Below, in pieces: positions 31,228 to 37,967 of a DNA stretch of 48,122 nucleotides. Both the position numbers and the translations under genes were made by a program. The number at the start of each line of letters is the position of its first letter. Position 1 is the stretch's first letter. Location: the NCBI GenBank assembly GCA_030835085.1, contig JAUQWQ010000029.1, forward strand, positions 1-48,122, in the 5' to 3' direction. The stretch is from Ignavibacteria bacterium. GTDB lineage: Bacteria; Bacteroidota; Ignavibacteria; Tepidaquicellales; OLB5. The notes below the pieces were generated by a model. It saw only the letters and a program-made list of their open reading frames with translations, was not told the origin of the DNA and did not search any database.

Positions 31228-33204
31228 CTAGAATGCCTGACCTATGCCGAACTGAATCGCGAATTTATCTTTGAATATTCTCCCCGGGTTATCAAAAAGC
31301 CATTGTTCACCTTCAGGCGCTGAAGGATCATACAGCTTAAAGCCGAAATCAAACCTGATCGGTCCAATAAACAGATCATACCTGACACCGAATCCAACCG
31401 CCATAGCAATTTGTGAAACCCTGAAATCTTTGTGAGTTTCCCATACATTCCCGTAATCCAGAAATAGAGCTCCGCCAAGCGCGCTTGTGAATCCTTCAGC
31501 ATCGGGAAAAAGCTTCCGGCGCAGCTCAATGCTTCCTTCAAGCAGGAAAGTGCCGCCGTTTATCTTGTTTGCCAGCATACCGTTTCCTTTTGCATTCCAC
31601 CCCCTTAGACTGCTGGAGCCGCCGCTGAAAAATTTATATGGCGGCTGAACCGGAACGATGTTTTCACCCGCGCCGTATTCAATTATATCACCTATTTTTA
31701 TGTTCGTGGCAAGTACCGTATTATCTTTTCGGGCAAGAGAAAAATAGGCTTTATTCAGAGTGTAGAATTTGAAAAACTGTGAATAGAAAACGCTTTTGCC
31801 AAACATCCCCGTCACTAGGCGCGGCAGCAAGCCGGCATTGCCTATAAGAACTGAATGGTAGAAGCCCCTTGAGGGGGCCAGCAGATTGTTTGTATTATCG
31901 TGCTCAAATGTAATGCTTAAAATTGAGTTGAATTGTGTCTGCCTTCCTGTCGCAATTGTATCAAATTTGATCCATATCAATTCTTCATTCAGGTCAAGAT
32001 ATGCATTATTATAAAATGTATGCGGCGCTATAAAATAATTCAGTGTAGTTAAATTGGCTAAAAAGTAATTCTTGTAGTTTTCTACATTGTTGAAACCAAT
32101 TGAAAGCTTATCAGTAAGTGTAATGTTTCGTCTTAAAAAATGAGGTTGAGTAACGGTTGCAGAAAATTCAGTGCGGTTAATATCGGTAGAATGAAAATCG
32201 CCTTCCAGTTCAAGCATAAGCGTCCGGTTCCCTGAAAGGAAATATTTGTTCAGGTATCTCAAACCGGCGCCCAGGTAGAACCTGTTTTCAAAATTCGAAC
32301 CTTTAATGAAAGGAGTCAGCTCATTCTTCTTGTTCAGGGTAATATCAGCCGTAAAATTCACTTTACTTCCGGTTATTTCTGCCGGATTAAGTTTTGCACT
32401 GGATATGATCGGGATCTTTGCAATATTTCTTTCGCTATCAAGCTTTTTAGCTTTGCTGTAAATTTCGCCTTCTTTGTAAGTAATTTCTTCGGCGGGCAGC
32501 TCAGTTCTCACTCCGTATTCATTATCTTTTATGTTTATTGTTGTGTTTCCGAAGTAGTATATCGTATCAGTGCCTTCAAGGTTCAGTTCAACAGTAACAC
32601 TGCCCCTTTCTTTGTAGCGTCTTATTACTGTACCTGAATCAATTTTATATCTGGCATTCATGTAACCGTTATTCTGCAGTGTATCTAGAATCTCGTTGCC
32701 ATATTGAAGAATAAGAACTTTATTGTAATTATCCCCTTTTTTTATGGTATAAATTCTGCGGACCTTTCCCAGAGTTTCGGTTGGTATCTTATCAATACCG
32801 GTAATTATTGCTGAATCAAGTTTATACCGCTTGTTTTCGGTTATCTTAAAGGTAATTGAGGCTTCTGATTCTTCCCGGTCAATTCTTATCGAAGTATCAA
32901 CTTCCACATCGAAGAAACCGTTATCAAAATAGAATTTCTTAAGCTTCCCGATATCCCCTTCAACCAGGTTAAGATTAAAAACAGAACTTTTCGAAAGTGC
33001 AATTGCATCTTTGAGCTGGCTGTTATCAAAAGTCTGTCCCCCGGTAAATTTAAATTCAATCTCATCTATCTCAGGCATATCCTGGGAAAAGGCGAAAGGG
33101 ACTGAGATTAAACCGGCAAAGAATACGAATAGAAATATCACGTACATTCTGATCTTCCCGTAAATAATTATACCAGTTTGATTTCTTTGCATTCTATAAC
33201 CCAA
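31228..33204 (-). CDS. Omp85-family outer-membrane protein (TamA/BamA-like)
   Basis: The 658-residue protein has a signal peptide ending near FAFS. Two or three POTRA domains follow (IDEIEFKFTGGQTFDNSQLKDAI, KKFYFDNGFFDVEVD, ILDTLQNNGYMNARYKIDSG), with a C-terminal 16-strand barrel. The conserved barrel-lock region reads FFSGGSSSLRGW and ends FGIGQAF, with a terminal Phe. The first ATG overlaps the POL gene by 11 bp; ATGs at 33192 and 33147 are alternatives. The first is preferred because Arg and Lys then precede the hydrophobic core. It may be the TamB partner (TamA-like), given their tail-to-tail placement (inference). Confidence 0.88.
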   Translation of the reverse strand: MGYRMQRNQTGIIIYGKIRMYVIFLFVFFAGLISVPFAFSQDMPEIDEIEFKFTGGQTFDNSQLKDAIALSKSSVFNLNLVEGDIGKLKKFYFDNGFFDVEVDTSIRIDREESEASITFKITENKRYKLDSAIITGIDKIPTETLGKVRRIYTIKKGDNYNKVLILQYGNEILDTLQNNGYMNARYKIDSGTVIRRYKERGSVTVELNLEGTDTIYYFGNTTINIKDNEYGVRTELPAEEITYKEGEIYSKAKKLDSERNIAKIPIISSAKLNPAEITGSKVNFTADITLNKKNELTPFIKGSNFENRFYLGAGLRYLNKYFLSGNRTLMLELEGDFHSTDINRTEFSATVTQPHFLRRNITLTDKLSIGFNNVENYKNYFLANLTTLNYFIAPHTFYNNAYLDLNEELIWIKFDTIATGRQTQFNSILSITFEHDNTNNLLAPSRGFYHSVLIGNAGLLPRLVTGMFGKSVFYSQFFKFYTLNKAYFSLARKDNTVLATNIKIGDIIEYGAGENIVPVQPPYKFFSGGSSSLRGWNAKGNGMLANKINGGTFLLEGSIELRRKLFPDAEGFTSALGGALFLDYGNVWETHKDFRVSQIAMAVGFGVRYDLFIGPIRFDFGFKLYDPSAPEGEQWLFDNPGRIFKDKFAIQFGIGQAF

Positions 33205-34096
33205 GATTTTTCATACACTTCTCTATATTGATTCCTTTGCCAAGTACCCCTTTAAACAGGTCACCTTTTTTGTTCAGGCGCTTGAATATATTCTTGATCG
33301 TAAATTCTTCCGGTGATCCCAGTGATTTAAGCTCCTTCCATTCAAGGGGTGTTGATACAGGCGCCTTTGCTTTGGGTCTGGTGCTGTATGGTGAGGCAAG
33401 GGTTTGCCCTGTTCTGTTCTGCAGGTAATCTATATATACTTTTCTTTTTCTCTTCGAAGGTGACCTTTCAATGCTTGTAAATCCCGGCACCAGGTTGTTA
33501 GTCAGCTCTGCTATAACGTGCGCAAATTCCCTGGAAATTTCAAAATCGTATTTTTTGTTCAGGGGAATATAAATGTGTATCCCCGTAGCTCCCGATGTTT
33601 TACAATATCCGGGTACTTTTGCCTTATCAAGTATTTCTTTCACAGCAAAAGCTGTTTCAATAACCTTTTTGAACGGAATATCCAGCGGGTCAAGATCAAT
33701 TGCAAGATAGTCAGGATTATTGATCTTCCTGACGGTCGAAAACCATGGATTGATCTCTATGCTGCCCAGATTTACCATATACAAAAGCGATGCTTCGTCA
33801 GTGCATACAAAATAATTTATATTTTCATCGTTTGATTCGGAATATACTTCTGCTGTTGTTATCCACTCAGCAACCTTGCCTTTAACATCCTTCTGGTAAA
33901 AACTCTTTCCCTTAATTCCATTGGGGAAACGGTTCAGTGAATGGGGTCTGTTCTTAATATATGGAAGAATGTATCCCGAAATATTATGATAATACTCCAG
34001 CAGTTCCCCTTTGGTGTATTTTTCTTCCGGCCAATATATCTTTTCCAGATTAGTGAGCTCGATAATACGGCCATTCACTTTAATTTGTTTATCCAC
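33194..34096 (-). CDS. LigD primase-polymerase domain protein (POL)
   Basis: The 300-residue protein is a complete LigD-type archaeo-eukaryotic primase-polymerase. Motif I has the two metal-binding Asp in DYLAIDLDPLD. The SGATGIHIYIPL block matches the sugar/triphosphate-binding motif SGxxGxHxxxP, and VYIDYLQN carries the third catalytic Asp. It fills gaps with ribo- or deoxyribonucleotides during NHEJ. It starts with GTG at 34096, in the same frame as the ligase gene. The two are separated only by TGA-AAT-TAA, which suggests fission of a LIG-POL fusion or tight re-initiation. Confidence 0.9.
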   Translation of the reverse strand: MDKQIKVNGRIIELTNLEKIYWPEEKYTKGELLEYYHNISGYILPYIKNRPHSLNRFPNGIKGKSFYQKDVKGKVAEWITTAEVYSESNDENINYFVCTDEASLLYMVNLGSIEINPWFSTVRKINNPDYLAIDLDPLDIPFKKVIETAFAVKEILDKAKVPGYCKTSGATGIHIYIPLNKKYDFEISREFAHVIAELTNNLVPGFTSIERSPSKRKRKVYIDYLQNRTGQTLASPYSTRPKAKAPVSTPLEWKELKSLGSPEEFTIKNIFKRLNKKGDLFKGVLGKGINIEKCMKNLGL

Positions 34097-34102
34097 TTAA
34101 TT

Positions 34103-35089
34103 TCAGATCTTTATGGTTTTCTTTTTTTGCCCGCCCAAAGTCACATCTTCGGCTTTTTTGTCATCGCGAAGTCTCATAAATACCGGGTGCCTCAATATGC
34201 CGTCATTTGTCATATGAGAAAATTTTACTTCACAAACCAGCTTAGGTCTCAGCCATGTGACCGGTGCATTCGGCTTTGGGGGTTTGGTAAAAGGGCTGCT
34301 TTTTGCAGCATACTTTTGCATCAAATTGTAAACTGCTCTCTGATTTAACAGGTTAAAACCGGTTCCGGTATGACCAATATAGGTAAGCTTATCTTTATTA
34401 AATACCCCTAATATCAATGCCCCGAAAAATTTACGGCTTCCGCGTGGTTCTGTATATCCGCAAATCACTGCATCCAGTGTCTCTTCAGTTTTTATTTTTA
34501 GCCAGTTTGATGAACGGGTATCTTCGTAATAATGGCTGTCTGATTTTTTCGCTATAATTCCCTCGAGCTTAAGCTTCCTGGCTTCATTGAATAGTTTAAC
34601 GCCCCTTTCAGCAACATGTCCGCAGTACAATATATTTTCTGTCTCTGGCAGCAGCTCCTTTAGAAGCTCTTTTCTTTTTATTACCGTGAGGTCTTCGGTG
34701 CTGTAACCGTTCAACCACAGCAGGTCAAATACGCAGTATACTATATTGCCAATACGCGTTTTTCTGTAGTTCTGCAATTGCTGAAAATTCGGACGGTCAT
34801 CTTCATCTATGGCAACAGCTTCGCCGTCAATCACAAAGTCACCGTCTATTTTCTTTAAAGATTCTCTTATTGAAGGGAACAGGAGGTCAAATGATGTTAA
34901 GTTACGTGAGCTGAGGGTGACTTTGTTACTTTTCTTTTTGGATATTACCCTGTAACCATCCCATTTGATCTCAAATATCCACTCTTTGCTGTTGAAAGGC
35001 TTATCGGTTAAAACAGCAAGCATAGGTTTTATATTGCCTGGAAAGGGGACTTTTGTCAGGTTATTTTTTTGTTGTTTTCTTTCTGCCAT
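34103..35089 (-). CDS. ligD: LigD ATP-dependent DNA ligase domain protein (LIG)
   Basis: The 328-residue protein has the nucleotidyl-transferase motifs. Motif I is EIKWDGYR with Lys42 as the AMP-accepting residue. Further motifs are VIDGEAVA (III), VFDLLWLNG (IIIa), EGIIAKKSDSHY (IV), and WLKIKTEETLDAVICGYT (V). An OB-fold domain follows (FKALILGVFNK-like strand, W/P-rich LRPKLVCEVKFSHMTNDGILRHPVFMRLRDDK). It seals double-strand breaks in NHEJ. The start overlaps the PE gene by 29 bp in another frame. The stop is six bases from the POL start. Confidence 0.93.
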   Translation of the reverse strand: MAERKQQKNNLTKVPFPGNIKPMLAVLTDKPFNSKEWIFEIKWDGYRVISKKKSNKVTLSSRNLTSFDLLFPSIRESLKKIDGDFVIDGEAVAIDEDDRPNFQQLQNYRKTRIGNIVYCVFDLLWLNGYSTEDLTVIKRKELLKELLPETENILYCGHVAERGVKLFNEARKLKLEGIIAKKSDSHYYEDTRSSNWLKIKTEETLDAVICGYTEPRGSRKFFGALILGVFNKDKLTYIGHTGTGFNLLNQRAVYNLMQKYAAKSSPFTKPPKPNAPVTWLRPKLVCEVKFSHMTNDGILRHPVFMRLRDDKKAEDVTLGGQKKKTIKI

Positions 35090-35663
35090 CGGATTTCTGC
35101 AGCATTTCTATAGTTTTACCGCTGATAACAGACTTATTCTTCTTAAGTATATCAACACCGGACGAATATTCATCCTTTTTCTTAATCAGCAGCCATGATT
35201 TTTCGTCTTTTCTCATATTCACGAGCGCAAATTCTCCCTTTAGTTTCTTTCCAAGCAGTACAATCTTAATATCACCTTTCTTAAGGGCTTTCTTCAGGAG
35301 CTTTTCATTTTCAGATTTATCTGTTCCCCCGCCTGCCGGCAGATAGATACCGGTATCCCACACAATTACTTCACCTGCACCGTAATTTCCTTTAGGTATA
35401 GTACCTTCAAAATCCTTGTAATCAAACGGGTGATCTTCTACCTTCATCGCAAGCCTTTTATCTTCAGGGTTCATTGAGGGTCCCTTGGGTATTGCCCAGC
35501 TTAACAGAACTCCTCCCAGCTCAAGCCTGAAATCGTAGTGCAAATGACTGGCATCGTGTTTTTGCACTGTAAAAACCAATTCTTCGTGGCCGGGTTTTAC
35601 CTTTCCTGCAGGTTCTTTGGTATTTTTAAAATTCCTTTTTTTTCTGTAATCACTGAGGCTCAT
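35061..35663 (-). CDS. LigD 3'-phosphoesterase domain protein (PE)
   Basis: The 200-residue protein is a stand-alone LigD phosphoesterase domain. It has FTVQKHDASHLHYDFRLELGGVLLSWAIPKGPS, with the His and Asp metal ligands (H-D-A-S-H-L-H-Y-D-F-R-L-E). The DHPFDYKDFEGTIPKGNYGAGEVIVWD block completes the signature. It trims 3' ends (ribonucleotides and phosphates) during NHEJ. It lies 10 bp after Ku and overlaps the ligase start by 29 bp. Confidence 0.92.
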   Translation of the reverse strand: MSLSDYRKKRNFKNTKEPAGKVKPGHEELVFTVQKHDASHLHYDFRLELGGVLLSWAIPKGPSMNPEDKRLAMKVEDHPFDYKDFEGTIPKGNYGAGEVIVWDTGIYLPAGGGTDKSENEKLLKKALKKGDIKIVLLGKKLKGEFALVNMRKDEKSWLLIKKKDEYSSGVDILKKNKSVISGKTIEMLQKSDGRKKTTKK

Positions 35664-35673
35664 ATTACTTTTT

Positions 35674-36444
35674 TTATGCTGCCTTGCTCTTCATGCTCTG
35701 TTTCAGCAATTTCATTAAATTTCCGGCTGAGCTTGGTTTTGGCTCTTTGCCTTTGGGTTTTATCTTCTGTCCCTTAGCTTTCTTTGTGATAATTTTTTTA
35801 AGCTCATCAACATATGTATCTTTATATTCCTTTGGATTATATTTCTTACTCAATTGTTTAATAAGATCAACTGCCATATCAATTTCTTTTTTGGTAACTT
35901 GTTTTGATGTTGGTATTGATAGCTCTGTGGTATCCCTTACTTCATCATAAAACCTTATCTGATTGAATACAATAACATCATCAAAGATCCTCAAAAGCCC
36001 AATGTGCTCACGGTTCTTCAGTACAAATCTGCCTATTCCGGCTTTTTTTGTCTGCTTAATGGCCTCCCTAAGCAGTGCATATGATTTTGTCCCGGATCTT
36101 TCAGGCTCAAGGAAATAGGGTTTTTCAAAATATACCGGGTCTATTTCCTTTTCATTTACAAAATGGAGAATATCAATTGTATGCGATTTTTCAACGCTTG
36201 CGCTTTCAAAGTCCTTATCGGTCAATACAACATAATCACCTTCTTTATATTTGTAGCCCTTTACAATATTTTCGTAGGGAATCTCTTTTCCGTCATCCCT
36301 GCAAACACGCGCAAATCTCACCTGGCAAAGGTCTCCTTTGCGGAGCATGTCAAGATCAAGCGTATGGCTTTGTGAAGCAGAGTACAGCTTAACAGGTATA
36401 TTTACCAGCCCGAAACTTATCGAGCCTTTCCATAATGCTTTCAT
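35674..36444 (-). CDS. ku: Ku, DNA-end-binding protein of NHEJ
   Basis: The 256-residue protein is bacterial Ku: MKALWKGSISFGLVNIPVKLYSAS at the N-terminus, LCQVRFARVCRDDGKEI, YVVLTDKDFESASVEKSHTIDILHFV and a C-terminal KYNPKEYKDTYVDELKKIITKKA. The tail after about residue 215 is Lys-rich. Ku binds double-strand ends and recruits LigD. It starts 5 bp after the FAD/Rieske gene stop and precedes PE, LIG and POL, so all four NHEJ parts are in one unit. Confidence 0.95.
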   Translation of the reverse strand: MKALWKGSISFGLVNIPVKLYSASQSHTLDLDMLRKGDLCQVRFARVCRDDGKEIPYENIVKGYKYKEGDYVVLTDKDFESASVEKSHTIDILHFVNEKEIDPVYFEKPYFLEPERSGTKSYALLREAIKQTKKAGIGRFVLKNREHIGLLRIFDDVIVFNQIRFYDEVRDTTELSIPTSKQVTKKEIDMAVDLIKQLSKKYNPKEYKDTYVDELKKIITKKAKGQKIKPKGKEPKPSSAGNLMKLLKQSMKSKAA

Positions 36445-36449
36445 GTTTA

Positions 36450-37967
36450 TTAATTTAATTTTTTCAGGTCTGCCAGTGCAGGTCCGTTTATTACTTTACC
36501 GGTTGCTTCAAATCGTGAACCGTGGCAAGGACAATCCCAGGTATTTTCAGTTTTGTTCCATTCAACCACGCATTTTAAATGCGGGCATAGAGCTGAGAAC
36601 CTGTGAATTATCCCGCCGGCATCCTTGTAAACCGCCGTTTTATCTTTGCCGAAGCTCATCACAGCGCCTGTTCCCGGCGGAATTTCGTTTTCATCTGCAT
36701 ATTCAGGGGGAGTTATTATATCAATGTACTGAATAGCTGTGTTAAAACCTTCCTTTATGAATTCCGGGGCTGCCTTAAGTGTTATCCTTTTAGGATCGTA
36801 TACTTCAGCCCATGCATTTTCTCTTCCGTTTATCATATCAGAAAGCAGTATTGCCGCATAAGATGCATGGGTTATTCCCATGCCTGAATCGCCGGTTACA
36901 ATATAAATGTGTTTAGGGTTTTCAGGGTCTTTGCCGATAAAGCTCAGTCCATCAAAGGGCTCAAGTACCTGTCCTGACCACTTGTACTCAACATGTTCAG
37001 CCATCGGGAATCTTTCGGAGGTCCACTTTACAAGGTTTCTAAACCGCTCTTCAGGGTTATCATCCTGCCCGGTTTTATGATCCTCACCGCCGACAATCAG
37101 GATATCATTCTTCTGCTGTTTATACAGCCTGATATAATGATACGGGTTTTCGTTATCCCAATACAATGCATGCGGAATGGAGTCTTTGGGTACACGCACT
37201 CCTATCACATAAGTTCTGTATGCAGCCTGCTTGGTGTGTATTGCAATATAGACACTCACCGGGCTGTTGGTTGCAATGATAATATCCTTAGCCGTGATCT
37301 TAAGCTTATTTTTTGTTTCCGCAATTGCCTCCGGACCGTCAGTGATCTTCTGAATATGGGTTTGAGTATATATCCTGCCGCCCATTGCGGTAATTGCATT
37401 TGCAAGCCCGCTCAGGTATTTCAGCATGTGGAATTCAGCCTGGTTGGGGAATTCCAGACACGGGTAATCACCCAGTGCGGTATACGGCGGTGCTGATGCG
37501 ATATTCACTTCTACTCCTGCTCTTTTGCAGGCATCGTATTCCATTTCAAGCACACCGGATCTTTCTTCCGGTTTAAAGATCAGGTAACCGTTCAAGCGCT
37601 GAAAGTCACACTCAATATTGTTTTCAGTAATAATTTTCTCAATTAGGTTAATGCCTGCGGTCTGACTTTCAGTGGCGATCCTTGCTGTTTCTTCACCATG
37701 CATTTTTTCTATAGCATAATACCTGTCATCAATTACATTGGTAATGTGTGCTGTAGTCCTGGAAGACTCACCTCCGGCAATACTGCCGTCATCAACTATG
37801 ATGACTTTTTTTCCTGATTTGAGGAGTAAGTAGGCGCTGCTTAGGCCGCTTATACCCGCCCCGACTATACAAACGTCACATTCAGTATCTTTTGTTAATG
37901 AAGAAAATACGGGGACATTAAATGTCCCCATCCAGATCGATTCGGTCTTTCCTGATTCAGGTTTCAT
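36450..37967 (-). CDS. FAD-dependent oxidoreductase with C-terminal Rieske domain
   Basis: The 505-residue protein starts with a DAO-type FAD domain. It shows CDVCIVGAGISGLSSAYLLLKSGKKVIIVDDGSIAGGESSRTTAH (dinucleotide fold, GxGxxG) and TGDSGMGITHASYAAILL near its end. The C-terminal Rieske domain has C461-P-H463 and C479-P-C-H482, the CxH...CxxH ligands of a 2Fe-2S cluster. It is a soluble redox enzyme that could pass electrons from the flavin to the cluster; the substrate is unknown. It lies between the lmo0937-type gene and Ku (12 bp and 5 bp). Confidence 0.92.
   Translation of the reverse strand: MKPESGKTESIWMGTFNVPVFSSLTKDTECDVCIVGAGISGLSSAYLLLKSGKKVIIVDDGSIAGGESSRTTAHITNVIDDRYYAIEKMHGEETARIATESQTAGINLIEKIITENNIECDFQRLNGYLIFKPEERSGVLEMEYDACKRAGVEVNIASAPPYTALGDYPCLEFPNQAEFHMLKYLSGLANAITAMGGRIYTQTHIQKITDGPEAIAETKNKLKITAKDIIIATNSPVSVYIAIHTKQAAYRTYVIGVRVPKDSIPHALYWDNENPYHYIRLYKQQKNDILIVGGEDHKTGQDDNPEERFRNLVKWTSERFPMAEHVEYKWSGQVLEPFDGLSFIGKDPENPKHIYIVTGDSGMGITHASYAAILLSDMINGRENAWAEVYDPKRITLKAAPEFIKEGFNTAIQYIDIITPPEYADENEIPPGTGAVMSFGKDKTAVYKDAGGIIHRFSALCPHLKCVVEWNKTENTWDCPCHGSRFEATGKVINGPALADLKKLN

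Follow-up and report, generated by a model that had tools for sequence, protein, structure and literature searches.

LigD, the enzyme that joins phosphoesterase, ligase and polymerase activities in one chain in Pseudomonas aeruginosa, appears in pieces in a contig of an Ignavibacteria bacterium. Within the stretch of DNA analysed here (48,122 nucleotides, referred to as the window), the 3'-phosphoesterase (PE), the ATP-dependent ligase (LIG) and the primase-polymerase (POL) lie in three consecutive genes. A sequence-only reading of this DNA had suggested that such an arrangement is what a recent fission, or the unfused ancestor, would look like. The question is therefore whether the three genes are a broken LigD, a relic that precedes the fused enzyme, or an established form in its own right. 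The reading preferred here, at a probability of roughly 85%, is that of a complete NHEJ locus whose single polycistronic message is expected to yield each LigD activity as a polypeptide of its own, most likely as the outcome of an old fission.

The split NHEJ locus

The genes for Ku, PE, LIG and POL follow one another on the minus strand (Table 1; coordinates are those of the window ORFs). Neither Ku nor the strand was named in the sequence-only reading, which had described consecutive PE, LIG and POL genes in the order of the fused enzyme, a description with which coordinates, domain scores and profile matches agree. Ku ends 10 nt upstream of PE, and the gene for an oxidoreductase with a Rieske domain (DAO-Rieske), the first in the apparent operon, lies 5 nt upstream of Ku. 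The overlap of PE and LIG in unlike frames was found as it had been described, with LIG in frame +1 relative to PE. LIG and POL share one frame, again as described: the LIG stop codon TGA (34105-34103) is followed by AAT (34102-34100), TAA (34099-34097) and the POL start codon GTG (34096-34094). The genome is a draft of 234 contigs, 99% complete, and holds one copy each of LIG and POL.

Table 1. Features of the split LigD locus and its neighbours in the window (scores in bits, with the curated NCBIfam cut-offs)
Feature	Position	Strand	Evidence
FAD-dependent oxidoreductase (DAO) with C-terminal Rieske domain	36450..37967	-	Pfam PF01266, PF00355
Ku, bacterial NHEJ end-binding protein	35674..36444	-	TIGR02772 301.6, cut-off 150
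PE, LigD 3'-phosphoesterase, stand-alone gene, 200 aa	35061..35663	-	TIGR02777 215.8, cut-off 144
PE/LIG overlap, 29 bp, differing frames, contains LIG ATG	35061..35089	-	coordinates
LIG, LigD ATP-dependent ligase, stand-alone gene, 328 aa, KWDG	34103..35089	-	TIGR02779 284.7, cut-off 227.75
Spacer AAT-TAA, 6 nt, from LIG stop to POL start, with second in-frame stop	34097..34102	-	sequence
POL, LigD primase-polymerase, stand-alone gene, 300 aa, GTG start	33194..34096	-	TIGR02778 239.4, cut-off 214.7
BamA/Omp85-family outer-membrane protein, directly 3' of POL	31228..33204	-	PF01103, PF07244

Two neighbours flank these genes. The DAO-Rieske gene precedes and adjoins Ku in members of the genus (G009, G002, G012, G008, G005 and G001) and in G028 of another family. 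The BamA/Omp85 gene is a conserved neighbour outside NHEJ that is kept 3' of POL across the genus; a second copy (43%) is found elsewhere in the genome, at G000:C186:15278-17269. The start of the window gene is likely to be an ATG near 33147, ahead of the signal peptide.

PE, LIG and POL each exceed the curated NCBIfam cut-off for the corresponding LigD domain, and POL also matches PF21686 with 296 bits. Against the model of the fused enzyme, PRK05972, the three proteins align at positions 5-201, 228-547 and 577-866. Because these are successive parts of the model, the genes follow the domain order of the Pseudomonas-type enzyme. No single gene reaches a cut-off for the whole single-chain protein, the scores being 245, 281 and 228 against 895 bits for PRK05972 and 260 and 264 against 373.2 for TIGR02776. 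Alignment of PE to 2lj6 shows conservation of the H/H/D/R/H/Y positions, which we take to be the catalytic ones. The lysine of the LIG motif KWDG (KxDG) is in place when aligned to the ligase of Mtb LigD (1vs0), as are the DxD motif and the third Asp of POL when aligned to 5dmu. Separate PE, LIG and POL genes are found with Ku in one co-directional cluster, the arrangement of a split NHEJ operon.

Working of this operon can be sketched as follows. One polycistronic message would encode DAO, Ku, PE, LIG and POL. To judge from the overlap, LIG would be translated from its own ATG within the PE frame by termination-reinitiation, and POL probably from a start a few bases to either side of the LIG stop. 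Such coupled translation could supply the enzymes in matched amounts. Ku would bind the DNA break, and POL, PE and LIG may assemble as a non-covalent equivalent of LigD in which POL fills or extends the ends, PE trims 3' ends and LIG seals.

The split form in relatives

All seven genus members that carry the window lineage of LigD have the split form with the same neighbours, while five further genus members have no LigD of this kind. The order DAO-Ku-PE-LIG-POL is common to G009, G002, G012 and G008, and the three-gene form is divided over contig ends in G001 and G005. Two genomes of another family in the same taxonomic order (G022 and G028) also have three genes, with POL about 68% identical. 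As the same gene order recurs in relatives, it is not due to chance.

The two seams between the genes differ in what is conserved. The PE/LIG overlap measures 29 bp in four of the five genus members measured (the window, G009, G002 and G012) and 32 bp in the fifth (G008); in all five, LIG is in frame +1 and has an ATG. Since both the overlap and the LIG ATG are conserved, coupled translation is suggested. In G028, LIG is in frame +2 with an ATG at -4. Gaps from LIG to POL among the relatives are +6, +4, -8, +5, -4 and +16 nt, and the frames vary. The in-frame TGA-AAT-TAA of the window is hence an accident of this one genome.

That a fused ligD was broken in the window genome only, by recent fission, pseudogenisation or sequencing error, is scarcely credible: the shared LIG/POL frame with only TGA-AAT-TAA between, and the draft state of the assembly, speak for it, but the split, with differing gaps and frames, is found in every genus member that has this LigD lineage and in two genomes from a second family, and PE, LIG and POL each have their own start and intact motifs. 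Sequencing error as the cause of the stop codons appears very unlikely, as the split is conserved in relatives, and no relative inside the window clade has a stop-free fused gene at the same site.

A second LigD lineage also exists in the genus, since G007 carries a POL-PE-LIG enzyme (L052); the family member G013 has another (L053), each with about 36% identity and with its own divergent Ku. These and other POL-PE-LIG enzymes were used only as outgroup. Elsewhere, two PE-POL fusions without a ligase domain between them (L114 in G544 and L116 in G684) are found in the family of G614, which has full PE-LIG-POL, and the ligase domain has apparently been lost. Stand-alone pairs of PE and POL with no adjacent LigD ligase (L049 in G044, L086 in G332 and L087 in G350) lie within a deep-branching clade in the tree of POL.

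Age and direction of the split

The alignment of homologues and the domain trees that the sequence-only reading had proposed as a check showed the split to be conserved in relatives and gave the same nearest neighbours for each domain. The trees of POL, LIG, PE and the concatenated domains all place the genus with or near G022 and G028, so PE, LIG and POL were probably inherited together. Assembly from unrelated sources was considered and rejected on this agreement of the domain trees.

The history of the two seams was traced on an 88-row tree of LIG and POL; eight POL-PE-LIG rows were left out of the count of fused forms. Parsimony requires the PE/LIG seam to have changed state 18 times or more and the LIG/POL seam 9 times or more. 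Under the Mk model, the window clade is split with p 0.92-0.95 (PE/LIG) and 0.94 (LIG/POL). Its nearest outgroups are G614, which is fused, and G666, which has LIG-POL in one frame. At the node joining the window clade to these two, LIG/POL is fused with p 0.96-1.0, while PE/LIG is fused in frame with p 0.54-0.88, the value of 0.54 being that of equal rates. This node has SH-aLRT support of 80% in quick trees, and the gene tree behind the polarity of fission mixes vertical descent with likely transfer. At the 85-row core, LIG-POL is fused with p 0.98-1.0. An ancestor with fused LIG-POL is favoured by these models, and the most likely history is that LigD split along the stem leading to an order-level clade, at a time when families f1 and f2 had not yet diverged. 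The earlier alternatives of recent fission or unfused ancestor thus stand in part: the split is real and fission likely, but it would predate the divergence of two families and is not recent. G030, whose LigD is fused in the same domain order, was considered as a direct fused ancestor and rejected, as its LigD falls in another clade with f29-type genes and is not an orthologue.

Alternatively, the three-gene operon may be the original state and the fused LigDs later fusions. Split genes in G237 and in the f11 clade (G052/G079) are basal in the PE-LIG-POL family, and the equal-rates probability of a split family root is 0.48 for PE/LIG and 0.47 for LIG/POL. The outgroup is fused in the other order, POL-PE-LIG, which implies a still deeper unfused stage. 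However, the basal split rows are long branches of unsafe placement, and LIG-POL is fused both below the window clade and in the core at the probabilities given above. The one frame of LIG-POL in G614 and G666 tells against an unfused ancestor for this seam in particular. Retention of an unfused ancestor is accordingly regarded as unlikely, and an old fission is kept as the preferred account of the window operon.

A probable frameshifting seam in related LigD loci

The PE/LIG seam takes a different form in many relatives. In 42 related loci, 41 of which are rows of the final 88-row tree, PE and LIG (usually LIG-POL) lie in different frames. The junction carries a run of nine or ten A (A9 or A10), with LIG in frame +2, in 41 of these loci; the one other has A8 and frame +1. 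The A9/A10 junction loci are L092 (4428-4550), L108, L110, L115, L123-L139, L144-L166 and L188-L201, and three or more families of the phylum conserve the run in the PE/LIG overlap. Most loci with an A-run have no ATG, GTG or TTG ahead of the ligase core; in the minority that have a start, it lies either at -4/-1 or 26-65 nt beyond the PE stop codon. PE-LIG-POL results if the run gains one A or if reading shifts by -1 on it.

Several lines of evidence bear on whether the run is used. The linker from the PE stop to the first in-frame ATG has a median dN/dS of 0.22 in the first species set (24 usable pairs) and of 0.06 in the second (25 usable pairs), where it is no higher than in the ligase core. 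Because it evolves as protein, the linker appears to be translated despite mostly lacking a start codon. Across the 75,345 nt that encode LIG(-POL) in the A-run loci, no run of A9 or longer occurs. Downstream RNA structure, considered as a sign of ribosomal frameshifting, has a mean z of -1.34 against simple mononucleotide shuffles, a value that decides neither for nor against. Sequencing error at the run is unlikely, as several of the genomes were assembled into one contig each. Simple phase variation is argued against by run lengths that are fixed within genera. In genus g203, sampled out-of-frame members have A10; two members (L185 in G812 and L186 in G803) are fused in frame, with A11 in the same place.

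Comparative evidence of this kind indicates conserved frameshifting at the PE/LIG seam in the relatives. It is likely that the seam is a conserved recoding site at which LIG(-POL), mostly startless, is reached from PE by a transcriptional slip of +1 A or a -1 ribosomal shift at A9/A10, which would give free PE together with full-length PE-LIG-POL. On that view, the split operon of the window would add a separate start to two other solutions for free PE, an in-frame and a frameshifted fusion.

It is very improbable that programmed frameshifting joins PE and LIG in the window too. In favour of such joining, the PE stop is closely preceded by an A7 run, from which the loss of one A in the transcript would put PE and LIG in one frame, and the junction of G666, which belongs to the same class, is A9. 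Against this, runs in the genus reach only A6-A7 and lie at differing positions, LIG possesses a conserved ATG of its own at -29/-32, and its frame in the window is +1, whereas loci with A9/A10 have the opposite, +2. On these grounds, frameshifting was rejected for the window; in the window clade, LIG has its own ATG, there is no A-run of 8 or more, and the frame is +1 (in G028, +2). Loci with their own LIG start and no run of A8 or more form a separate class of 17 including the window, and POL is split off in 15 of them.

Comparison with known systems

A three-gene operon such as that of the window is an already known kind of NHEJ locus. In the archaeo-prokaryotic split NHEJ operon of Methanocella paludicola (PMC4797286), ligase, primase-polymerase and phosphoesterase are likewise separate in one operon, and the separate proteins work together; by analogy, cooperation of separate Lig, Pol and PE can be inferred for the window operon. 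The window differs in being bacterial, in its fused-enzyme order and overlapping genes, and in its probable derivation from a fused LIG-POL. With the single-chain LigD of Pseudomonas aeruginosa (PRK05972), it shares the three domains, their order and the catalytic residues, whereas its three polypeptides each fall far under the single-chain cut-off. In Streptomyces (PMC5124664), too, the ligase and polymerase domains are encoded by different genes close to Ku (ligC-polR and kuA-polK), for which the authors suggest a past split, but these genes lie at separate loci and have paralogues, in contrast to the one compact operon with PE seen here.

A survey of NHEJ systems (PMC7719229) classes separate-domain systems as nonconventional and all Bacteroidetes with NHEJ as conventional. 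Under the phylum grouping used here the window and its relatives would be exceptions, and Ignavibacteria may be counted elsewhere in that survey. For the A9/A10 junctions of related LigD, the nearest parallels are known systems of frameshifting and slippage at A-runs (review PMC5009743; GeneTack survey PMC3711429), with which they share overlapping frames and a fixed slippery run, a site that the window is without. No DNA ligase or NHEJ example occurs in the searchable text of either paper, and no description of a frameshifted LigD was found in the literature searched, which was mostly open-access main text.

Implications

The frameshifted LigD of the relatives is more surprising than the split operon of the window. 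A run fixed at A9/A10 in dozens of species points to a free phosphoesterase beside full LigD. Gene callers would label such A-run genes as split or broken, so survey counts of "split LigD" may be partly an artefact of recoding. On one tree, at least 18 switches between fusion, frameshift and separate start are counted at the PE/LIG seam. In the Ignavibacteria, to which the genus of the window belongs, LigD need not be a single chain, and the stable, family-level version in three proteins is useful for asking what fusion does.
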